This document shows, piece by piece, positions 44,266 through 64,000 of a DNA stretch of 64,000 nucleotides. A program made the translations under genes and the position numbers. Numbering within the stretch: the stretch's first letter is position 1; each line of letters opens with the position of its first letter. Origin of the DNA: an uncultured Flavobacteriaceae bacterium (GTDB taxonomy: Bacteria; Bacteroidota; Bacteroidia; Flavobacteriales; Flavobacteriaceae); contig CALTAJ010000002.1 in the NCBI GenBank assembly GCA_943842245.1, positions 1,065,700-1,129,699 of the forward strand, given 5' to 3'. Below the pieces are notes generated by a model. It saw nothing but the letters and a program-made list of their open reading frames with translations. It was not told the DNA's origin and made no database searches.

Positions 44266-44640
44266 TTATTCTTTGTCAACAGAGTATTTACCAGGGCCAA
44301 TAAAATAGATAACAATAAAAGCAATTAAATACATTAACGATTTTTCTTTTCTAGAAAAAGGATCACCATCATGTGCAATTGCAAAAGCCACTAGCATTGT
44401 AGATGCAGGGAAAATACTAAATAATCGCGTTTTCCATCCAATAATTATAAAAATAGGCGCTATAAATTCCCCAAAAGAAGCTAAAATTAATGATGGAGCA
44501 ACACCTATTCCAATTGGATCACCAAACTTAAAATTTCCAGTAATTACTTTTAAAAACTTTCCATATCCATGAGTCATTAATGCTATTGAAAATCCAAAAC
44601 GTAAAATAAGTAATCCTAGGTTTAGCTTTAATTTACTCAT
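44266..44640 (-). CDS. DoxX family protein
   Basis: 124 aa, four hydrophobic helices, [21 protein letters not shown]. Confidence 0.85.
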
Positions 44641-44641
44641 A

Positions 44642-45649
<1,008 letters not shown>

Positions 45650-45650
<1 letters not shown>

Positions 45651-46503
45651 CTTTTTAAACTTTGTATGCATTTTTTCAATGACTTTCTTGCCACGTTGGA
45701 ATTGCAAAGATAATTGATTTTCTATTCGTTTGTGTCCAAGATACTGTATTTAGGGCGTTTGCTAGACGTTGGATAGGCTGCTGTTGGAAGGGTTCCTTGC
45801 ACATGGACTTTTAATCTAATCATTACAATGCTTCTGGCAAATTCTTTCCAGTAGTGCACACTCCATTGGCATAATGTAAAATTGGAATCAAGTATAATTG
45901 GTTGTTGATATAGTTCTTAAAACGGTTCTTGCCAAATCAATTCCATAGGTGGGTCTTCCCCACTGATCATCAACCACTTTAATGCTGTTTTTTCTTTTGC
46001 TAATTCGAGCAATCGTCTTAACAAAGTTTTTTCCAAAAGGGCTAAACAGCCATGATGTTCTGATAGTTACAATCTTGAGGCAGCTGCTTTTTGTAAGGCG
46101 ACTTCTCTCCTTGCAATTTTGATTTCCATAGACCCGTTGATTGGGATTACATTCTTTCTTGATAGGGTTCAGAAGACGTCCATCAAAAACATAATCTGTA
46201 GAAAAATGAATGATTGAAAGCTTTTTCTTCAGCAAAGTCAATTAGATTTTGTAGTCCTTCAGTGTTGATTTTAAAGGTGCTCTCTTGATTCTTCTTCTGC
46301 CTGATCAACATTGTGTAAGCGGCGCAATTGATAATGCCATCAAAAGGGTTTTTGTTATAAAAATTTGCAAGGGTTTCCGGACGCGTAATGTCTACTTCAT
46401 TTCTAGAAGCAAAAAATAAATGTGTCTCGGGGAATTCTTTGGCAACCGTATGAAAACATTGTCCCAATTGACCTGCTCCGCCTGTTACTAAATAACTAGG
46501 CAT
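45650..46503 (-). pseudogene. rfbD: dTDP-4-dehydrorhamnose reductase, frame-disrupted (end approximate)
   Basis: MPSYLVTGGAGQLGQ..., FSTDYVFDG, RTSWLFSPFGKNFVKTI in different frames. Confidence 0.82.
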
Positions 46504-46540
46504 AAGAGTTGTCCTTATAATCAAATAAGGGGGCCTCCTG

Positions 46541-47071
46541 CTAAGTTAGGGATGCTTTTTGATCTTTCTCAGATTGAATCCATTCTGACTTTGGATATCT
46601 GCCAATCTATCCCTAAAGCAGGATCATCTGGTGCAATACTTCCTTCACTCTTAATTATAAGTATTGATCTACTTTGTAGATAAAAATAGAAGTCTCACTT
46701 AAGGTAATATATCCATGAGCAAACCCTCTGGGAATAAAAAGTTGTAGTTGATTTTCTGCGCTTAATTCTTAACTAAAATACTGCCCAAAGGTGGGCGATC
46801 CTTTTCTTATGTCCACAACCACATCCAATACGTTCCTTGTATCACTTGAACTAATTTCGTTTGACTAAAGGGAGGTAATTGATAATGTAATCCCCGTAAA
46901 ACTCCTTTTTTGGAATGCGTAAGATTATCTTGACAAAACATTGATTTTTCTCCCTAAAGCTTTTTCAACTTCTTGCATTAAAACTGTTCCATAAAAGAAC
47001 CCCGTTCATCTATGATGAACGTTAGGCTTTAAAATAAAAACCTCCTTGAAAGGAGTAGTTTTGATATTCAT
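46541..47071 (-). pseudogene. rfbC: dTDP-4-dehydrorhamnose 3,5-epimerase, frame-disrupted
   Basis: Manual translation: MNIKTTPFKEVFILKPNV / ERGSFME / GVLRGLHYQLPPFSQTKLVQVIQG / VLDVVVDIRKGSPTFGQYFS / ELSAENQLQLFIPRGFAHGY, with indels and one in-frame TAA. Confidence 0.82.
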
Positions 47072-47104
47072 AATGGATCGATTTAATTGAAGTTAAAGTT
47101 ATAT

Positions 47105-47986
47105 TTATTGCTGTATTTTATTAACTAAATAGCTCCGTATCGAAGTTTCGTTCATTTTATGTAGCGCCTTCCAAGAAGTTTTGTCTCTTTGTGAATAATC
47201 CTTTTTCAAACGCTATTTCTTCTAAACAGCCTACTTTAAGCCCTTGCCGTTTTTCAATGGTTTCGAATAAATTGGCCTGCTTCCAATAAGGATTCGTGTG
47301 TTCCCGTGTCCAGCCAAGCAAAACCTCTTCCCAAGGCTTCTACTTGAAGTTTCCTTGCTTAAATACTGTTCGTTTACAGCGGTAATTTCCAATTCCCCTC
47401 GCTCTGAAGGTTGTATTTCTTTTGCTAATTTCAATTACGAGTTAGGATAAAAATACAAGCCTACCACTGCTTGATTACTTTTTGGATTTTCAGGTTTTTC
47501 TTCAATAGAAAGTCGCTTTCCCTGATTATCATATTCAATAACTCCATAACGCTTGGGGATCATTAACTGTATATCCAAAAATAGTAGCTTTTTGACCTAG
47601 ATTGTTCTTTGTTTGACCACGCTTCAAGCTGTTCTGAAAAATCTAATGCCGTAAAAAATATTGTCCCCTAAAATTAGACAAACTGGGTCTTCCCCGATAA
47701 AGTCTTCTCCCAAAACAAACGCTTCTGCCAACCTTTCGGTTGTGGCTGAATTTTATATTGAAGCTTTATCCCCATTGGCTTCCATCGCCCAACAAACGTT
47801 CGATATTGACTATGTCTTCAGGAGTACTGATAAGCAATACCTCACGAATTCCTGCCAACATCAACACCGACAAGGGATAATAAACCATAGGTTTATCATA
47901 AACTGGTAAGAAGTTGTTTGGAAACTCCTAAAGTCACCGGGAAAAGTCGGGATCCATGTACCGCCAGCAAGGAGGAGGGCTTTCAT
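47105..47986 (-). pseudogene. rfbA: Glucose-1-phosphate thymidylyltransferase, frame-disrupted
   Basis: Manual translation: LLAGG / PVTLGVSKQ / [32 protein letters not shown] / [10 protein letters not shown] / [10 protein letters not shown] in shifting frames. Confidence 0.82.
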
Positions 47987-47999
47987 CAACGATTATTTT

Positions 48000-49205
48000 T
48001 TTTAAAGATATCACAGAATCATTCAAATCTATTTTTCAAAGAAGTTCTTAAATAATTCTTTTTTCTTTTAATGAAGAAAAATCTTTGAGGTATAAGCTTC
48101 TTTACAATTTTTTTTCATTCTTTGATATGAGTCTTGATACGAGACATTATGAATCAAATATTTTAGCTAATCAGTCTTTATTCCCTGCATTACAACAGAA
48201 CCCAAATTATTTTCTTTAATTATTGAATTGGCTCTCCAGATTAAAGCCAATAATTGGTATGCCATCGCATAAATAGGTTTGAAGTTTCGCTGGAACTGTT
48301 TTAGAAATAAAGGAGCTCTTTTAATGAAAGAAATAAATAATCAGACTCTTTGAAAAAATGTAATAATTTTAGATGAATCTACATGCATCAAAAAATTTGT
48401 ATTTTCTATTTAATTTTGTGATTAACTAGTTTTTAAGATTTTCTTTATTTCTTCCATCCCATATTAATCTCATTTCGTATTTTATTTTTTGATATTTTAA
48501 TCGCTTCAACTAAACTTTCAAAGATCTTGTGCCTCTCCAATATTCCCTGCGTAAGAAATTATCAATTTTTTCTGTTTTGTAGAGCTTATATTTCATGCTT
48601 TAATTTTCAAAAACTGGAGTCTGCCCAATTAGGGAAATAACTGACTTTTCAGATTTACTCTTTTTTGAGCAAATTCCTTAAAACTTTCTGATCCTAAGAG
48701 AATATGATCAAATTGATTATAAAACCATTTAAATAAGCTTCTAGAATATTGAGTAGCCTTTTAGATTTTATAATTCCAACAGAGCTTAAGTGTTTGAGGC
48801 CACATATCTAAATCCCATAATATAACTTTTGATTCCTTTATCTTTTTGTAGATAAGAGCAGGTAAAAAAAGTAATGGGGGCGAGGTATGGTGAATGATTA
48901 AGAGTATCGTATTTCTTATGGAAAATATAGCCAAAAGTTGAAAAGAAATAAAGAAAAAAAATAGGATAAGATAGTTAAGTAATGATAAGCTTATTACCTG
49001 CCTTCCCTCTTGGAATAACTGGAAGTCTATAAACGGTATGCCCTTTTGATGCGTTTTTTTACTTCCAAAAATGCTGAATCCTTTCAAAATTTTACCTTTC
49101 GGATAGTTTGGGTTAGAGTAACTACTGAAGTAGTAATATTTTCTGCAGAACCAATCTACAACATCATTTATTTTGAAAGTATTCAGGGTAGAAGTGATTC
49201 GTAAA
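48000..49205 (-). pseudogene. Glycosyltransferase family 4 (WbuB-like), frame-disrupted (limits approximate)
   Basis: Only one sizeable fragment in the ORF track (48761..49087); position after fnlC supports a WbuB-like GT. Confidence 0.45.
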
Positions 49206-49207
49206 AA

Positions 49208-50353
49208 TTAAGACTCTTTTTTCCACACATTTTGATTTACATAATCAGTGTAAGAAAGGATAATTTTTTCAATCTTCTCAGAAACATTATCTGGTCTATA
49301 ATCTAAAACAGAAATTTCATTTGTTTTTGAAAGAGAAGTGTTTTCCAAAAGAGTAACTGCCCTTAAAATTCTCTGCTTATTTAAATCGGTAAACATTACT
49401 GCGGCTTCCTCCATTGCTTCTGGTCTCTCGTGAGAGGATCTGATGTTTATAGCTTTAAAATTTAGTATAGAAGCCTCCTCTGAAATTGTACCACTATCTG
49501 ATAGTACTACAAATGAGTTTAACTGAAGTGCGTTATAATCTATAAAACCTAGTGGATCTAATAAACTGAATTTTATCAGAAGGACTTACTCTAACTTTCT
49601 CTAATTGTTTTCTGGTTCTTGGGTGGGTAGAAAATATAATTGGGTAATTATACTTTTCTGACAAGACTATTTAAAGTTGAAATAAGTTCTTCAAGCTTTT
49701 TTGGATTATCTACATTTTCTTCTCTATGAGAAGAGACCACAAAATAAGCTCCTTTTTTAAGTCTAAGTGATTTAAGAATCGAAGATTGCTTTATTTTATC
49801 TAAATAAAATTGTAATACTTCATTCATAGGAGAGCCTGTCTTTAATAATTCTATCAGCACTAATTCCTTCTTTTAAAAGGTACTCTCTTGCTATTGATGA
49901 ATAAGGCAAATTAATATCTGCTATATGATCTACAATTTTCCGGTTGGTTTCTTCTGGAACATTTTGATCAAAACATCTGTTTCCAGCCTCCATATGAAAT
50001 ATTGGAATTTTATATCTTTTTTGCAACTAGTGCAGAAAGACAGCTATTGGTATCCCCTAAAACTAGCAGTGCATCTGGATTTAGTTTTTTAAGACAGGCT
50101 CAGTTTTAATTATAATATTACCAATTGTTTCAGCAGCTGTGCTTCCTGCAGCCTCCAAAAAAATATCTGGCTTTTTTATTCCTAATTCTTCAAAAAAAAC
50201 TTGATTTAAGTTGTAATCATAATTTTGTCCCGTATGAATTAGTGTGTGTTTGATAGACTTAGATTCATTAAGCCTGGAGATGACTCTAGATAGTCTTATA
50301 ATCTCTGGTCTAGTACCAACAATAGTTACAACATTTAAAAGTTCTTGTCCCAT
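49208..50353 (-). pseudogene. UDP-N-acetylglucosamine 2-epimerase family (FnlC/WbjD/WecB-like), frame-disrupted
   Basis: Fragments: NVVTIVGTRPEIIRLSRVISRL...HTGQNYDYNLNQVFFEELGI; FHMEAGNRCFDQNVPEETNRKIVDHIADINLPYSSIAREYLLKEGI; YFVVSSHREENVDN; C-term EEAAVMFTDLNKQRI. Confidence 0.85.
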
Positions 50354-50362
50354 TTAACTAAA

Positions 50363-51468
50363 TTAAACAATTTCAGGGTAGGTGTCAGGATCATTTTGAT
50401 CATAAGGCTCATTTATCCAGAAAAACGTGAGTAATTCTTCGTCTCCAATATTAGTAATATTATGGGTATACCAAATGGGCATATCCACATAGCTTGGTGA
50501 ATTTCCATCGAGCTCAAAAGAAATTATTTCGTCTGTTAAATATTTTCTAAGCTCAATTTTAGCTTTTCCTTTAATTACAGAAAAACGCTCAATCTTTCTG
50601 GTGTGGAAATGATTACCTCTAGTTATCCCGCTATTGGTAGTTGAATAAGAGGATTGCCCCATAGAAAGGGCTTTGGAGAGTTCTATAAAACTTCCTCTTT
50701 CATCTGAATGTAATTTATACTCTCTTGGGAAAAATTCTTTATGATTAATATAGCTCCTAAAAGTATTAAAGAGCTCTTTGTCAAATTTTGATTCAAGATT
50801 TGGAATTTTATTCTCTTGAATATATTGTTCATTAAAAATAAATTCAATTTTTCTAATACCTCAGAAACTTTAATTTCGGTTAGAAAATCAAAGTTTATGC
50901 TTCTATTTTTCCTTTCAAAAGCTCTAAAAGTGAGCTTATGTAATCATCAATATAAATTAGTTTTACTGTATTGTCAGTAATAATTGTAGGGTTTGATTGT
51001 TTAATAATTGATGTGAAAAAGTAGCTATAAATGAATTGTAAAAGGGTTTACAAAAAGGGCCAAAAACGTTTGGGGTTAGAGAGGAGTAAAAAGTAAATCC
51101 TAATTTTTTAGAAAGCCTATCAAAATCTTCTCTAGCCTTTTTTTTAGCTTTCCCATAAAGGGAATCTGAATCTTCTTGGAGTGAAGATGAAAAATATAAT
51201 TTCCCTTTAAAATTTATTTTTTCTAAATGTTTTAGTAGCGAACTATTAATTTCAATATTGGACTGTAAACTTCTTGATCGGTTTCAGCTCTATTGACCCC
51301 AGCTAAATGATAAATAAAATCTTCTTTTTGAATTTTATTATTAAAATTCTCTGAACGGAAATCTTCTTTATTTAATAGTATAAGATTATGATTTGGAAAG
51401 TGAAGATTTAAATTTCTGAGTAGATGTCCTCCAACAAATCCGGTATGTCCTGAAATTACAATTCTCAC
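50363..51468 (-). pseudogene. FnlB/WbjC-like reductase with cupin C-terminal part, frame-disrupted
   Basis: N-term MRIVISGHTGFVGGHLLRNL...DFIYHLAGVNRA; C-term GITRGNHFHTRKIERFSVIKGKAKIELR. Confidence 0.8.
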
Positions 51469-51477
51469 ATTAGTATA

Positions 51478-52486
51478 TTAAAGACCTAAATCTTGTCGAA
51501 TTTCGGGAAGCTTAAGTAACAATTCTTTCATTTGAGTCAACATCCAATCTATTTGTGTTGTCGGAGTTATATTCTTCTTTAATCGTTGAATTATCTCCCT
51601 TTTGAAAAGTATTTATCGTAATTAAGGTCTCTGTTATCTGCTGATACTCTATAATAATCTCCAAGATCTTCACTTTTGGCCATCTCTTCTTTGGTTACCA
51701 GAGTCTCGTACATTTTCTCCCCATGACGAATACCAATATTTTGTATCTCAGATTTGGAATTATATAAAGAAATCAGTGCTTCAGCTAAAGTCTGAATCGT
51801 TGCAGCAGGTGATTTTTGTATAAATAGATCTCCGTTATTTCCCTTTTCAAATGCAAATTGAACCAAATCAACTGCATCATCTAAGGTCATCATAAACCGG
51901 GTCATTTGGGGTTAGTGATGGTAAGTGGTTTATTATTTTTTATCTGCTCAATAAATAAGGGTATTACTGAACCTCTTGAGGCCATTACATTTCCATAACG
52001 AGTCCCACAAAAAACAGATTTTTTTGGATCTAAGTTTCTTGCAGCTGCCATCATCGTTTTTTCCATTAATGCCTTTGTCATTCCCATGGCATTTATTGGG
52101 TAAGCTGCTTTATCTGTACTTAATACCACAGCCTTTTTTAACTACCAAACTCTTCAGCTGCTGAGAGTACATTATTAGTTCCTAAAATATTTGTTTTTAC
52201 AGCCTCTATTGGGAAAGAATTCACATGATGGCACTTGTTTAAGTGCTGCAGCATGAAAGATATAATCAACTCCCTTAACTACTTTTGAAACTGATTCTTT
52301 GTCTCTTACATCTCCAATATAGAATTTAACTTTATCTGAATTTAACTTCTTTCTTAGGTCATCCTGTTTTTTTTCATCCCTGAGAAAAATTCTTATTTCA
52401 GAATAAAATCTATTTTGAACTGCTCCTTTTAAAAAAGCGTTTCCAAAGGACCCTGTTCCACCTGTTATTAATAGAATATTATTCAT
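51478..52486 (-). pseudogene. FnlA/WbjB-like UDP-GlcNAc 4,6-dehydratase/epimerase, frame-disrupted
   Basis: NNILLITGGTGSFGNAFLKG; VLSTDKAAYPINAMGMTKALMEKTMMAAAR; MTRFMMTLDDAVDLVQFAFEKG in separate frames. Confidence 0.85.
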
Positions 52487-53606
52487 TTGTTATTTCGTTT
52501 TTTATTAATTCTGATAGTGACTTAAGTCCTTTTTCTGAACTAAAATACTTCTTTGCTACTTTATATGCCATTTTTGGATAATTTTAATTTTAAATTCTTA
52601 TCCAAAATTAATTTTTCCATTGCTGTTCTTAACTCTTCAGTACTTTTAGGGTTTATTAATAAGGCGCTGTGATTATCTTTTAAATAATTTGGAATCATCC
52701 CAACATTAGTTGTTATCGAAGCTAAACCGCAAGAAAGAGCTTCTATTAAAGCATTAGGCATTCCTTCTGACCAAGAAGGCAAAACAAATACATCAGCGGA
52801 TTTATAATATTCATTTAGTTGGTTATTTGGTTTCCAACCTTCAAATTTAATGAAGTCTTCAAGTTTATTTTTAGAAATAAAATCTTTTGCTGATTTCATT
52901 AATTTTCCATTTCCAATAAAAGTGAAAAATAAAGAATGCTTTTTATCTTTGAGTATTTTAATGGAATTAAGTATCTCTAAACACCTTTTTCTTTTTCAAG
53001 CCACCCAACAAATAGAAAAGAAACAACATCAGATTGACTTTCATTTTTTCTGTTTTCTCCAATTAAAAGTAATTTTTCAGTTGCAGTCCAATTGTGTAAT
53101 ACCTTTATCCTTTTTTCGGATATATCTAGTTTTTGTGATGCAAAAAGCTTCCAATTTTCTCCTTGTGCTAGAAATATTGCTTCAGCAAATAAATATTTTA
53201 TAATTCTTTTAAAAAATGGAAACTTTTCTATTTGATAAATTAAATTTCCTGCTCTTGGAAAAATTAAGGGTTGTGCGCCAGAAATTTTTGATATCAAAAC
53301 CATTATACCTTTTTCCAAAGCACTTAATCCATCCGAACAAAAGATAAGAGTTACTTTAGGCTTATGTGTAAAAATTTTAAATACAAATCGAATAAGTCTA
53401 AAAAAGGCTAAAAAAAAACGAATTATAAAAGTTGGTGGAGGATTTGATATTTGAGAAGAATCAAATTGAATCAGTTTTATATTCGAAAAAAAATGAGAAT
53501 TAATAATCAGCTCGCAGGACTGCTGAATCCCACCAAAAATAAGCTTCTTTGGAAAAGAACCTACTATAAGTAAAGATTGGTTTTTGTTTGAAATTAATGA
53601 TTTCAT
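52479..53606 (-). pseudogene. Glycosyltransferase family 4, two frame breaks
   Basis: ORFs 52977..53606 and 52561..52899 join if one T is restored near 52978 (GVLEILNSIKILKDKKHSLFFTFIGNGKLMKSA); C-terminus joins if one base is removed near 52571. Confidence 0.82.
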
Positions 53607-57945: not shown

Positions 57946-58587
57946 TCACACAATTCCCTTCCAAGTTGCACCATTTTTTGTCCAAAAGTGATATGCAACC
58001 TGATTAGGATCGTATAGATATGAATATCCTTTATCAATAATTTCTTTTGCCCAAAACCTATCCTCTTTTCCAGAATATTCTTCAGGCATTGGGGATTCCA
58101 ATAAACCCTCTTTTTTATAAAAGCAAAATGCATTATGCAAGAAATATCTATTCTCAATCTCAGAAAATTTATTTGCCTCTACTTTATCTGAGAAGTTTGA
58201 CCAGATGTAAGATGGTGTAATTTTTTTACCCCTAAAAACAGGGATTTGTTTTCCAAAAATAGCTTTATATGTTTCTAATTGATCTTTTATTTTTTGGAAA
58301 TTTAGATTAATTATTTGAGTATGCCCTGACATTACGAGTACATAATCATTTGAACTAAGTTGCACCCCAGCATTTATAGATTTACCTGGTCTATAGTTGT
58401 CAATATTCTTAGTTATAATACTAGTTCTGTTATTAAAGTTTTGAACAACATCCATTGAATCATCCCTTGAATTATTGTTTAATACAATAATCTCTGGATT
58501 ATCAAAAAATTCAATACATGATTGAATAGCAAACCCTATATATTCAGCTTCATTTTTATTTCTAATGATGATACTTATATTATCCAT
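57946..58587 (-). CDS. Glycosyltransferase family 2
   Basis: 213 aa; SIIIRNKNEAEYIGFAIQS...IIVLNNNSRDDSMDVV; EDRFWAKEIIDKGY. Confidence 0.85.
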   Translation of the reverse strand: MDNISIIIRNKNEAEYIGFAIQSCIEFFDNPEIIVLNNNSRDDSMDVVQNFNNRTSIITKNIDNYRPGKSINAGVQLSSNDYVLVMSGHTQIINLNFQKIKDQLETYKAIFGKQIPVFRGKKITPSYIWSNFSDKVEANKFSEIENRYFLHNAFCFYKKEGLLESPMPEEYSGKEDRFWAKEIIDKGYSYLYDPNQVAYHFWTKNGATWKGIV

Positions 58588-59380
58588 TAAATCTTCCCGT
58601 ATAATTTATCCTTGAATCATTCTCTTTTTCATTATAACCTAATCCCAAATCATTAAACATCATTTTCCTTTTTTTTATGAAATCTGTCAAGTCTTTAAGT
58701 TGTTCAGGTAAAATCGCAAATTTATTATCTCTGCCTGGTAAATTTTTGTCAATGGTAAAATGTTTTTCAATTATAACAGCCCCTTCTCCAACAGCAATTT
58801 TAGAAGATTCCACACCTTCTATATGATCACTTAGCCCTACCTTATCACATATTGTCATTAATTTTTTCATTTTTGGCAAATTAGCTTGAGAAAAATCTTG
58901 AGGATAAATTGAGACACAATGCATCAAATATAAATCTGCGTTTTGAATCTTTTTTACACTTTCACTTATTTCACCAAATGTAGATGTACCAGATGACATT
59001 ATTAATGTTTTAAAATTATTATCACAAAAGCTAATTAATTCATGATTTCTTGATTCAAAACTTGGTATTTTAACGATATCACAGCCCAGATCCAACAAAA
59101 CTTTAGCATCAGGTATACTAAAAACACTAGATAAAAAAGAAATATTGTTTTCTTCACAATATTTTATTAATGTTTTGTGATCTTGAATTGAAAGTTCAGC
59201 TTTTTCGTAAATTTCTTTTCTACCATCGTGATCCCAGGCGCCTTTTTTTAGTCTTGATGTTGACCAAGTCTGAAATTTTGCATAGTTGGCCCCATTATCT
59301 TTTGCAGATTTAATAAACTTCTTTGCAAGCTCTATATCTCCACAATGATTCCAACCAATCTCCGCTATAATTTTTATCAT
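58580..59380 (-). CDS. NeuB/SpsE-like nonulosonate synthase family protein lacking a SAF domain
   Basis: 266 aa; AEIGWNHCGDIELAKKFIKSAKDNGANYAKFQTW; VKIPSFES; MSSGTSTFGEI; GLSDHIEG; EKHFTIDKNLPGRDNKFAI. Confidence 0.85.
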   Translation of the reverse strand: MIKIIAEIGWNHCGDIELAKKFIKSAKDNGANYAKFQTWSTSRLKKGAWDHDGRKEIYEKAELSIQDHKTLIKYCEENNISFLSSVFSIPDAKVLLDLGCDIVKIPSFESRNHELISFCDNNFKTLIMSSGTSTFGEISESVKKIQNADLYLMHCVSIYPQDFSQANLPKMKKLMTICDKVGLSDHIEGVESSKIAVGEGAVIIEKHFTIDKNLPGRDNKFAILPEQLKDLTDFIKKRKMMFNDLGLGYNEKENDSRINYTGRFNG

Positions 59381-59392
59381 TTTTAAATTTAT

Positions 59393-60349
59393 TTAATTAA
59401 GTTCCAGTAATTTAAATTTGGATCCAAATATAGACGCATATTTTGATAGAGATGTTTTGTATCCAATAATTTTTTTTCTTTCAAACAGCATTTCCAATTC
59501 AATATTAGTGTCATTTGAACAAATTACTATGTCATTTGAATCTATCTCGTCAAAGACTTTCCTAATTTCATTATCAATATTTTTGGATGAAGTAAATGAT
59601 GGGTGTAATTTTATTACTCCTTCCCCTTTCATTTCTTCAATTAACTGCTTAAACATTGTTTTCCAATATTCCCTTTTTATCCTTCTTGATGCACATGTAA
59701 GTCCAATTTTAGTTATTCCAAATAGTTTTGGCTTATAATCTTTTTTTAATGGTATAAAATCATTTAGAAGAATAATCTTTTTTTTTGGAACTCTTGGAAA
59801 AACATCTTTATTAATTCCTATATAACATTTAGAATCATTTCTAAAATAAAAGCCAATTTCGTCAACTTTATTAAACCTATTTCTCCAATTTCTTAAAAAT
59901 TTATCTTCCCATGACAATTGGTTCGGATTAAACTCTGGGATTTGCATATACGAATGCTGACCTTCTTCAATATAAATATGACCTTTACAACGATCTTCTT
60001 CAATAATCTTTTCAGCATTTAAATAAGCCCATGACGTATATAAAATAAAGTTTGAGCCTCTTGAATTAATTTGAGCTTTAATCAAACTTGCCGTGGGATA
60101 ATAAAAGAAAATTCTTTCTAAATATCTGTAATATTTTCCAATATTAATTTTGGTTACAGAATAATCAATCAAAGATGTATCTGTATCTCTAAATGAAAAT
60201 ATTTTTATGTTTTTTGATTTTATTTTATACTTATTTATTATCATTTTTGTTAATAAAACCGTAATAGGGTTAACTACAAAAAAAATATGGGTCCAGTTTC
60301 TGTCTAAAGCCTGTTTAACTATCTCTGGAATTTGTTTGTTTTTAACCAT
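59393..60349 (-). CDS. Hypothetical protein; candidate sialyltransferase-like GT-B enzyme
   Basis: 318 aa; IYIEEGQHSY ([DE][DE]G-type motif) and IKLHPSF (HP motif); adjacent to NeuB-like gene. Confidence 0.5.
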   Translation of the reverse strand: MVKNKQIPEIVKQALDRNWTHIFFVVNPITVLLTKMIINKYKIKSKNIKIFSFRDTDTSLIDYSVTKINIGKYYRYLERIFFYYPTASLIKAQINSRGSNFILYTSWAYLNAEKIIEEDRCKGHIYIEEGQHSYMQIPEFNPNQLSWEDKFLRNWRNRFNKVDEIGFYFRNDSKCYIGINKDVFPRVPKKKIILLNDFIPLKKDYKPKLFGITKIGLTCASRRIKREYWKTMFKQLIEEMKGEGVIKLHPSFTSSKNIDNEIRKVFDEIDSNDIVICSNDTNIELEMLFERKKIIGYKTSLSKYASIFGSKFKLLELN

Positions 60350-61117
60350 TTAGAATTTTAAAAAGCTTTTAATTGTGTATTTAAAATTATACTTTATCCA
60401 AAACTGAGTGGAGTAAATTTTGTCGAAGAAATTTAATCTTCTTTTATTAAGATTAATATTGTTAAACCCTATGATTTGATTTTTTCTTGATTTATACTTT
60501 AAAAATAATTCCAGATTTCTTAATTCATTTTTTGTAATAGTATCTGGATGAAGACATATTGTCCATGTTCCAAAAAATTTATTTTTAAAATCCCATAGTT
60601 GTTGGGGTATATAATTAAATCCATTTTCAAAAAAACTTGAATATGCAATTCCGTCACTTATAACTCTTATGTCTGTAACTTGCTCTAATGCCTTGAGTGT
60701 TTTCAGATCAAAAGTGTGGCTAGGTGCAACCCATAGCTTGGGTTTTATTCCATTTGAAATAAATATGTCATTTGCCTTTTTTATTTTTTCAATTTGTTCT
60801 TTTAAACTTAAACCCCCAAATTCACTTCTATTATAGAATGGGAATTTTAATTTAAATCTTTGACAATTGTGATAAACATGACTATAACCATGCATTGCAA
60901 TAGTCCAATTCAATTTTTGCCATTTATGAACCTTTTCCCAAAATTTTTCATTATATGCAGAGTATTGGATATTCTTATCCATATTATTAGGAGTAACTGC
61001 TACTATAGGTTTTACATTATATTTTATTAGAATCTTTTCAATTATGTTCCACTTGTTATTGTCTAAATAATGACTTGCATCATCAAGTCTAATTAGATAT
61101 TTTGGTGAAAAAATCAT
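60350..61117 (-). CDS. Polysaccharide deacetylase-like (DUF2334-type)
   Basis: 255 aa; IRLDDASHYLD, MHGYSHVYH, WVAPSHTFD. Confidence 0.75.
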   Translation of the reverse strand: MIFSPKYLIRLDDASHYLDNNKWNIIEKILIKYNVKPIVAVTPNNMDKNIQYSAYNEKFWEKVHKWQKLNWTIAMHGYSHVYHNCQRFKLKFPFYNRSEFGGLSLKEQIEKIKKANDIFISNGIKPKLWVAPSHTFDLKTLKALEQVTDIRVISDGIAYSSFFENGFNYIPQQLWDFKNKFFGTWTICLHPDTITKNELRNLELFLKYKSRKNQIIGFNNINLNKRRLNFFDKIYSTQFWIKYNFKYTIKSFLKF

Positions 61118-61118
61118 T

Positions 61119-62888
61119 TTATTTTTTTGAAATTAACCATTCCCCAAGAAGTAGGTGATCTAAACCACATCTTGTAAAAGTATCAATTGCATCTTCTGGC
61201 GAGCCAACAATTGATTCCCCGTGAATATTGAAAGATGTATTCATTAATGCTCCTACTCCTGTTAAGTCTTGGAAGGCTTTAATAAGGTTATAATATTTTA
61301 GATTATCCTTTTTTCTTACTATTTGAGGTCTAGCTGTTCTGTCAAATGGATGAAGTCCAGCAGTTAAGTGCTCCTCTGCCAAGTTGGTCGAATCAAACCC
61401 AACTGCCATAAACCGTGCATCGATTTTTTTTGGGTTTACTATGTAATCATGTTCTCTATCTTCTATAATACTAGGAGCAAAAGGCATCCAGAAATCTCTC
61501 ATTTTAACAACCTTATTAATTCTATGAATTACATCTGGTCTTCTTGGATCTGCAAGAATAGATCTATTCCCAAGAGCTCTTGCACCAAATTCCATTTTAT
61601 CATTACTAAATCTTGCGATAACCTCTCCTTTTGCTAATATTTTTGCACAATCTTTATTATTTGCTTTAGTACAAATAAATTCCTTTGATAATTTATCTTT
61701 AATAACTTTATTTATATACTCTTCAGAAAAACTGGGTCCAAGATATCCAGATATTTGTTCAAGACTTTTGACTTTATTAGTTCTTGAGATATATTCAAGA
61801 AATGCAGCTCCTATAGAGATGGATTCATCTCCAGGGCCTGGAGGTATAAATATATTATTCAGATCTTTTAACTCTGCTATTAACTTGTTTGCTTTAATAT
61901 TTTGAGCAACACCGCCACTCATTACAATATTTTTAATTCCAGTTTCTTTTATACCATTGTGAATCCATTCTGTTAATATTTCTTCTGATCTCTTTTGAAT
62001 TCCATAAGCTATTGCATCAAATCTTTGTCCTTCAAGCTTTTCTTGAAAATAAAAAAAATGATCTTTAATTTTAGTCTTGTATTTAAAAGACAGGCCATCA
62101 ACCTGAAGTGTCTCAGCATACACATTATATGCCTCTTTTCCATATTTGTGAGTATTGTAGGCGGCGAGTCCCATTAATTTATACTCATGCTCAGCTGGTC
62201 TCATTCCGAGCAGAAGAGTAGCATATCTATACATTCTTCCAATGTTACAATTTGCTGACCTTGATATTTCTTTCAATTTTTTACCAGGAGAGCCAATAGA
62301 TACAGTTCCGTTTGCACCATCTCCAAAACCATCCATTGTATAGACTAATTGATCTTCATTTCTATATGGACTAGCTATGTATCCATAATAAGCATGACAT
62401 TTATGGTGATCATGATGAATTATTTTTGACTTATCAATGCCAATATACCCCGATACATGATTTACTCTTGCATCCCACATTCCCAGATTATCTGATTCAT
62501 CCTTAATATACTTTTTGTCATAATGAAAGTTAGATTCATCTATACAATGTGATAATATGTCAAGATATTTTGGGTTTTTATTTTCATAAAGTTTTGGATA
62601 CCAATATTCTTTTTGTTCTTTCCAATAATCTTGAATTGTTAGCTTCGAATTTCTTTGTGTGTAGAAATAAGCTGGAGTCAAATGCTTTGATGACATAGCT
62701 ACAAAATCAATATCATCAAATTTAGATTTCCCATAGCTTCAAGACACAATCAATAGCCTTAAATGGAAAACCATAATGATTTTTTTGTCTAGATAACCTT
62801 TCTTCGGCTATTGAACAAATCAGCTTTCCGTCTTTTAATAATGCTCGCACTAGCATTATGTCCGTCATGTATTCCTAGTATAATCATG
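61119..62888 (-). pseudogene. NodU/CmcH-type carbamoyltransferase with two N-terminal frame breaks
   Basis: ORF 61119..62696 (HHDHHKCHAYYGY, GDGANGT, GGVAQNIKANK, NTSFNIHGESIV); N-term MIILGIHDGHNASA / ALLKDGKLICSIAEERLSRQKNHYGFPFKAIDCVLKLWE / SKFDDIDFVAMSSKHLTPAYFY recovered by removing one base near 62847 and one near 62743. Confidence 0.85.
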
Positions 62889-63588
62889 TTTTTGTGTTTT
62901 GCCATTTCTCAGTTAGATAAATGACTGTTTCTGAATCATTTGTTAAGTTATTTTTTCTAATCTTTGTGTCTATCCAAGTACTTCTTCTTAAGTCCTCTTC
63001 GTCATCAATTACAAGTCTGGCAGCAATGTTTTTTTTTGAAAAAGCAAACTCCATGTTCAAAATAGTAAATTGACTAGGATTTTTGTAATAATATCTTGTC
63101 ACATGTTCCTTATCTTCATTGTTTAAAGGCATCGAATACATTTTTTTTAATGATTTTGTTGAAATTACCTCTCCGGTTAGTCCTGGTGGAACTGTTCTGG
63201 GAAAAATATTAGTTGTTAAATCATTTTGGTTTTTTAAATGAGTACTAATCATAATATCATATATATTATGATCTAAAAAAGGTCTATCGCCACAGATTCT
63301 AATAAAATGATCGTATTTAAAATGTTCTGCTGTATCTATTGCTCTTCCTGCAACATCCGTTAGACTTCCTCTATACACATCTATTCCTTTTAATCTTCCG
63401 AAAGAAGCTATAACATCATCTTCCTCTTTTACTGATGTAGCTATACATAGATGGTCAATTTTCGAAATAAGCTTTGATCTATTTATAACTCTTTCTAATA
63501 AGCTAACCCCATTAATTGGAATCATTGCTTTACCCGGAAGCCTTGTCGAGCTCATCCTGCTAAAAATAATTCCACCAGTTTTAATCAT
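62884..63588 (-). CDS. SpsF-like cytidylyltransferase family protein
   Basis: 234 aa; IIFSRMSSTRLPGKAMIPINGVSLLERVINR; ICGDRPFLDHNIYD. Confidence 0.83.
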   Translation of the reverse strand: MIKTGGIIFSRMSSTRLPGKAMIPINGVSLLERVINRSKLISKIDHLCIATSVKEEDDVIASFGRLKGIDVYRGSLTDVAGRAIDTAEHFKYDHFIRICGDRPFLDHNIYDIMISTHLKNQNDLTTNIFPRTVPPGLTGEVISTKSLKKMYSMPLNNEDKEHVTRYYYKNPSQFTILNMEFAFSKKNIAARLVIDDEEDLRRSTWIDTKIRKNNLTNDSETVIYLTEKWQNTKT

Positions 63589-64000
63589 TTTTTAATTTTT
63601 GAAGTTAAAGTTTCTTTCAGTAAATTATAAATTCCCTGAAGCTGAAGATTATTAAAATCGTCACCAATAAAATTTTCACTAACAAAATTTTTAAACCTTA
63701 ACTCAGTTGTTGAGTTATGATTACCTAATACGCTTTCATTTTCTAGCTTAAGTTTTATGAAGTCAATAATTTCATTTTTATCTGACAGCTTTTTATTGAT
63801 AAGAGATGTGAACTCTAAGTTTTCAGTCCATGTTACTGTATTTGGACAACCTTTATACCAGCAATCTCCAAAAATTAAAGCTTGTTTTCCTATTACAGCT
63901 GATTCAAACCCAACAGTTCCGCTGATTGTTGCTGTAAACATACTGGCTCTAATTAATTCTAATGATTTATGTTCATTACCTAATATTTTAACATACATAA
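63585..64000 (-). CDS. Capsular polysaccharide biosynthesis-like protein, N-terminus beyond window
   Basis: ATISGTVGFESAVIGKQALIFGDCWYKGCPNTV resembles KpsS/capsule GT-B proteins; runs to window edge. Confidence 0.5.
   Translation of the reverse strand, partial: MYVKILGNEHKSLELIRASMFTATISGTVGFESAVIGKQALIFGDCWYKGCPNTVTWTENLEFTSLINKKLSDKNEIIDFIKLKLENESVLGNHNSTTELRFKNFVSENFIGDDFNNLQLQGIYNLLKETLTSKIKK

Follow-up and report, generated by a model that had tools for sequence, protein, structure and literature searches.

A likely CMP-ulosonate transferase related to PF07388, encoded beside a SAF-less NeuB in an uncultured Flavobacteriaceae bacterium

The polysialyltransferases of family GT38 (PF07388) are the closest described counterparts of the enzyme considered here. 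In one of them, MhPST, E153 of an EEG motif is the proposed catalytic base, H291 of an HP motif and the pair S339/T340 bind the phosphate, and E323 binds the ribose (PMC5517516). In NmB-polyST the substitutions E153A and G154A and the double mutation H278A/P279A each abolish the activity (PMC2169525), and in the known enzymes the mutation of EEG or HP abolishes or cripples the activity (PMC2169525, PMC5517516). The LOS sialyltransferases of GT52 (PF07922) and the GT80 enzymes also contain the D/E-D/E-G and HP motifs, and their donor site is similar (PMC2169525, PMC5517516). These motifs are insufficient by themselves, since SpsB from Bacillus contains both and yet is dispensable for the transfer of legionaminic acid (PMC7439481). 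In most environmental bacteria the CMP-nonulosonate transferases are still unidentified.

The synthases NeuB, PseI and SpsE (PF03102) share a synthase domain that carries the PEP, metal and substrate residues. In the Neisseria NeuB, Arg314 of the SAF domain is needed to place ManNAc and contacts its N-acetyl group (PMC6795526). The sps cluster of Bacillus subtilis (legionaminic acid) combines a NeuB-type synthase, SpsE, with an SpsF-type cytidylyltransferase, as does the locus described here. The two loci differ in that SpsE is longer (PDB 1vli, 385 aa) and SpsB is TagB-type; the legionaminic acid transferase of the Bacillus cluster is not known.

The window, a stretch of 64,000 nucleotides, forms the terminal part of a 1.13-Mb contig from an uncultured Flavobacteriaceae bacterium (genome of 2.08 Mb, roughly 90% complete), whose kinship in the searches points to a marine organism. 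The contig ends at window base 64000 and consequently the gene cluster is cut there and the sugar pathway is incomplete. The genes concerned are all on the minus strand. The most upstream is a partial ORF of 137 aa at the contig end (63585..63998), with a weak Capsule_synth-like C-terminus (PF05159, E=0.18, not significant). It is followed by an SpsF-like cytidylyltransferase, a predicted CMP-ulosonate synthetase (62884..63588; PF02348, E=1.8e-28), by a NodU/NolO-type carbamoyltransferase with a frameshifted N-terminus (61119..62696; PF16861/PF02543) and by a DUF2334 polysaccharide-deacetylase-like protein (60350..61117; PF10096, E=2.3e-45). Then come the 318-aa protein under study (59393..60349), a 266-aa NeuB-type ulosonate synthase (58580..59380; PF03102, E=3.2e-57) and a GT2 (GT-A) glycosyltransferase (57946..58587; PF00535, E=3.1e-15). 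The 318-aa ORF is intact within this co-directional cluster; 12 bp separate it from the NeuB gene, whose end is overlapped by 8 bp by the GT2 gene. An earlier note on this DNA had described the two central ORFs as adjacent and co-directional, the first with no obvious family and with an EEG upstream of an HP, the second ending before the SAF domain, and all of this was found in the window. The N-terminal residues of the carbamoyltransferase are present in other frames at 62.70-62.88 kb. At 44600-52700 and 62700-62880, frameshifts that are probably indel errors of the assembly interrupt many genes of the nucleotidyltransferase, dTDP-sugar, epimerase and carbamoyltransferase types.

The 318-aa protein is likely to be a divergent CMP-ulosonate transferase related to PF07388, with its fold, donor and acceptor being predictions. 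It would be a GT-B-type, inverting enzyme from a deep branch related to PF07388/GT38. Together with the SAF-less NeuB it probably makes a sialic-acid-like sugar and attaches it to the cell surface. In this scheme the NeuB would form the C-C bond of the donor from PEP and an aldose, and the SpsF-like cytidylyltransferase would activate the NeuB product as a CMP-ulosonic acid, the most likely donor, which the 318-aa enzyme would transfer to a surface polysaccharide.

Direct searches with the protein were nearly silent. In Pfam it matches no family at E<=1, and none at E<=5, PF07388 included. Nothing significant was found in PHROGs and the PDB, and single-sequence searches yielded no relative in plasmids, phages, viral contigs or GTDB contigs. 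The protein is absent from the 56 relatives searched, and in about 388-389 genomes of the class the sole match is a fragment with 28% identity (E=0.004). The first homologue was reached by comparing the single sequence, with hhalign, against clusters of ORFs located around NeuB loci. The best match, at P=0.0015, was a protein of Rufibacter (L092:12074-13120). Given the many tests this match is not significant alone, and it was confirmed by the family members found later. The Rufibacter protein led to L155/L167, and the alignment of the three sequences led to L168, L169 and L170. The five homologues reached in this stepwise manner are all from Bacteroidota and, with the window member, form a family of six proteins. 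The closest is L170:9398-10324 (BLASTP, 150 bits over 311 residues).

Circularity was checked with a profile built from the four more distant homologues (L167, L168, L169 and L092), from which the window protein and L170 were left out. This profile finds the window protein at E=1.6e-17, with an alignment over residues 21-311, whereas the first unrelated ORF appears at E=0.046; the profile of L167-L169 alone recovers it at E=6.6e-12. In the profile-profile comparison, the pair formed by the window protein and L170 matches the other four members with a probability of 98.6% (E=1.4e-15). Alignment-based scans of viral contigs with the family found no member, and searches of the PDB gave no match.

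The link to the polysialyltransferases passes through the intermediate members. Two of them score above the PF07388 Pfam cut-off of 23.3 bits, L167 with 43 bits (over 2-306 of 316) and L168 with 32 bits, and none of the six matches any other Pfam family at E<=5. The best hhalign partner of the family is L172, a full-length PF07388 protein (68.6% probability over 275 columns), against 8% for the highest-scoring of 114 control families. Compared directly with a mixed PF07388 set, the pair of the window protein and L170 gives no signal. On sequence grounds, the 318-aa protein is thus homologous to the PF07388 polysialyltransferases via intermediates, its own score being below membership. The earlier note had seen in its motifs the order and spacing style of GT38/GT52/GT80-like sialyltransferases. 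The relation to GT38 stands through the intermediates and the conserved EEG and HP motifs; no family member matches PF07922 or GT80 in Pfam. A search for GT52 in 99 Bacteroidota genomes returned no match, but the controls of that search were equally silent. The two AlphaFold2 models of the protein have mean pLDDT values of 36 and 38, both of low confidence, and the GT-B-type fold is a prediction from homology.

The motifs that drew attention to the protein are IYIEEGQHSY and IKLHPSF, with 118 residues from EEG (residues 128-130; 59960..59968) to HP (residues 249-250; 59600..59605). The pair can arise by chance: the pattern of [DE][DE]G and HP separated by 80-160 residues occurs in 0.25% of composition-shuffled copies, and 19 of the 1387 ORFs of comparable size from the fetched loci (~1.4%) contain it. 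It is therefore weak evidence alone, and together with the lack of a direct Pfam match it would suit a coincidence in a protein unrelated to sialyltransferases. Chance is excluded by the conservation in the homologues, on which the earlier note had made its reading depend. The EEG is invariant in the six members, and the HP is kept in four, the window protein included, and replaced by RP in the other two. Considering also the full-length profile homology to PF07388 members, a coincidence is highly improbable and already largely refuted.

The complete predicted donor site is arranged as in MhPST and NmB-polyST, in both the order and the spacing of the D/E-D/E-G, the HP, the ribose-binding Glu and the S/T pair. 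An invariant Glu lies 31-35 residues after the H/R in all six members (32 in MhPST), and a TS, SS or TA pair lies 15-16 residues after it, again in all six (16 in MhPST). From this spacing and conservation, Glu284 (59498..59500) and Thr299-Ser300 (59450..59455) are assigned as the counterparts of E323 and S339/T340, just as E129 and H249 would correspond to E153 and H291. In the proposed mechanism, E129 would take the proton from the acceptor hydroxyl, H249 and T299/S300 would bind the phosphate and also stabilise CMP as it leaves, and E284 would bind the ribose. The window protein differs from the GT38 enzymes in lying below PF07388 detection and in being encoded in a general locus for surface polysaccharides that also contains other ulosonate genes. 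The acceptor and the linkage are also predictions, and nothing in the evidence points to polymerisation or to an alpha-2,8 linkage. The high divergence (18-25% identity) and the absence from the 56 relatives might suggest a descendant of the transferase family that has switched to a non-CMP donor or lost its activity. This is very unlikely, as every predicted donor-site residue is kept and the ORF is intact in a co-directional cluster.

A CMP-activated donor is also suggested by the gene neighbourhood. All six members are near a CTP_transf_3 or NeuA-like (cytidylyltransferase) gene. In the window the SpsF-like gene lies 2.5 kb upstream of the transferase gene. Its product shares 32% identity with the SpsF half of an SpsF-aminotransferase fusion (L170:10370-12415) that is encoded immediately upstream of the closest homologue. 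In L167, L168 and L169 the cytidylyltransferase is within about 3 kb of the transferase, and in L092 the transferase adjoins a NeuB of a different subgroup and a NeuA-HAD fusion, the fusion being called by eye. Since the window and L092 were first noticed through NeuB, only the other four loci are independent for this association. The family is a small and testable one in Bacteroidota, with a conserved predicted donor site and, in the window, NeuB and SpsF next door.

With the same fold and the same CMP-dependence, the enzyme could instead use an ulosonic acid that is not a nine-carbon nonulosonic one, such as a Kdo-like acid with eight carbons. The HP motif also occurs in beta-Kdo transferases (PMC5517516), the neighbours of L169 include a HAD phosphatase and a cytidylyltransferase with a strong resemblance to KdsB (PF02348, 3.4e-44), and the window NeuB lacks Arg314, the contact to the N-acetyl group of ManNAc (PMC6795526). 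On the other hand, the window NeuB matches the NeuB/PseI profiles and nonulosonate loci typically have SpsF-type genes nearby (PMC7439481), which makes a Kdo-like or other donor of this kind unlikely. L167-L169 have no NeuB and contain a cassette of a DRE-TIM-type aldolase of ~513 aa (called by eye), CTP_transf_3, a HAD phosphatase and the PF07388-like transferase, which might provide another way of making a CMP-ulosonic acid. As these three relatives have the aldolase and not NeuB, the donors may differ within the family.

The NeuB beside the transferase covers positions 2-233 of the 241 of PF03102 and ends ahead of any SAF domain. With the GT2 gene overlapping its end, the NeuB gene is followed by no SAF-like sequence in any frame; a frameshift therefore does not explain the short length, and truncation of the NeuB was likewise rejected. 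The NeuB matches in the genus-mates of the host have open frames of 324-354 aa. The alignment of catalytic residues suggested in the earlier note showed that the PEP, metal and substrate residues are conserved across the 80 subfamily members compared. Relative to the Neisseria NeuB, E25, N29, K53, Q55, K129, E134, S154, Y186, S213, H215, E234, H236 and D247 are kept in 80/80 members and S132 in 79/80, whereas N184 is a Ser in 78/80, the window NeuB included. In window numbering, H186, H207, K35, K104, E7 and S184 are invariant (80/80). Judged from its residues, the window NeuB is shortened yet apparently intact, a true SAF-less form.

In contrast to canonical NeuB/PseI, the window NeuB has no equivalent of the partner-subunit Arg314. 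The SAF domain is replaced by a conserved C-terminal tail (...SR.NYTGRF.G, 58583..58636, from the 80-member comparison). This YxGR[F/W] tail lies at or near the C-terminus, with Arg263 kept in 79/80 members, F/W264 in 79/80 and Tyr260 in 76/80; it is a guess that Arg263 stands in for Arg314. The scores against the NeuB/PseI profiles are below the equivalog cut-offs (197 bits versus 399.65 and 170 versus 340.25). The best PDB match, 6ncs (290 aa, E=8.1e-34), likewise lacks the length for a SAF domain, but only about 240 residues align and the marine subfamily differs from it in tail and gene partners. The loss of the SAF domain is neither damage nor a one-off, as SAF-less NeuBs were already known (6ncs) and the window form belongs to a large marine and phage subfamily.

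This YxGR[F/W] subfamily was found at about 92 loci (L100-L154, L020-L056), mostly from uncultivated marine phages, SAR11, Prochlorococcus, SAR86 and marine Bacteroidetes. Of the 92 loci, 85 have a PseF-like cytidylyltransferase within the fetched flanks, 80 have a 2-hydroxyacid dehydrogenase and 80 an epimerase, and in 69 the NeuB is directly followed by a GT2 homologue, the commonest immediate neighbour. At the other loci of the subfamily, no relative of the 318-aa protein was detected. As the GT2 is the conserved partner of NeuB elsewhere, the use of the adjacent NeuB's product by the 318-aa enzyme, which is inferred from the gene order, is less sure. The adjacent GT2 could be the main partner of the SAF-less NeuB and is itself a candidate GT-A ulosonate transferase. 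It would then transfer the NeuB product, and the 318-aa enzyme would use a different CMP- or otherwise activated sugar. This division of labour is fairly unlikely. Known GT2 enzymes use UDP, GDP or dTDP sugars as donors, and no characterised CMP-ulosonate transferase is known to belong to GT2. In addition, the L092 family member adjoins a NeuB, of a different subgroup, and the NeuA fusion. Transfer by the 318-aa enzyme is the preferred reading. The earlier note's view of a nonulosonic-acid-like sugar made and transferred by divergent enzymes is strengthened by the PF07388 homology and the cytidylyltransferase neighbours, and weakened by GT2 being the conserved adjacent transferase of this NeuB subfamily.

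In the maximum-likelihood tree, the window NeuB and that of a Bacteroidetes single-cell genome form a pair (97/86), which belongs to a mostly viral clade (99/93) that includes 24 viral sequences. Most of the closest relatives of the window NeuB come from contigs of uncultivated marine phages, although some IMG/VR contigs may be misclassified. A NeuB relative occurs at 55 viral loci, nearly all of the SAF-less subfamily and some with endolysin-like genes nearby, and 50,697 phage records contain only two NeuB matches, both weak (31% identity or less). No description of the SAF-less NeuB/GT2 cassette was found in the literature, which is weak evidence of absence. A broader proposal, tentative and rather doubtful, is that the YxGR[F/W] NeuB makes a new ulosonic acid without SAF-borne N-acetyl recognition, on a cassette of NeuB, GT2, PseF-like cytidylyltransferase, 2-hydroxyacid dehydrogenase and epimerase common to abundant marine bacteria and phages. 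The transfer would be conducted by the GT-A GT2 in most lineages and by the new PF07388-like family here. The cassette suggests a sialic-acid-like surface chemistry common to SAR11, Prochlorococcus, SAR86, marine Bacteroidetes and many uncultivated phages. Such a shared chemistry might play a part in the adsorption of phages or in superinfection exclusion.

Other proteins were noticed during the searches. Candidates selected by the motifs only (cluster 47) resemble FkbM-type methyltransferases and were rejected. A further 318-aa protein, L166:1222-2178, has HP and SS motifs and adjoins a NeuA-like gene. It is not counted as a family member because its profile match is weak and it has no EEG; it is possibly another CMP-ulosonate transferase. 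A second group of short NeuB proteins, with ~289-300 aa and a QRxKLKYR-type tail, occurs in Bacteroidota such as Runella and Rufibacter (L073, L078, L083-L092, L095-L099), and in 19 of 20 of them E134 of the Neisseria NeuB is replaced by Cys.
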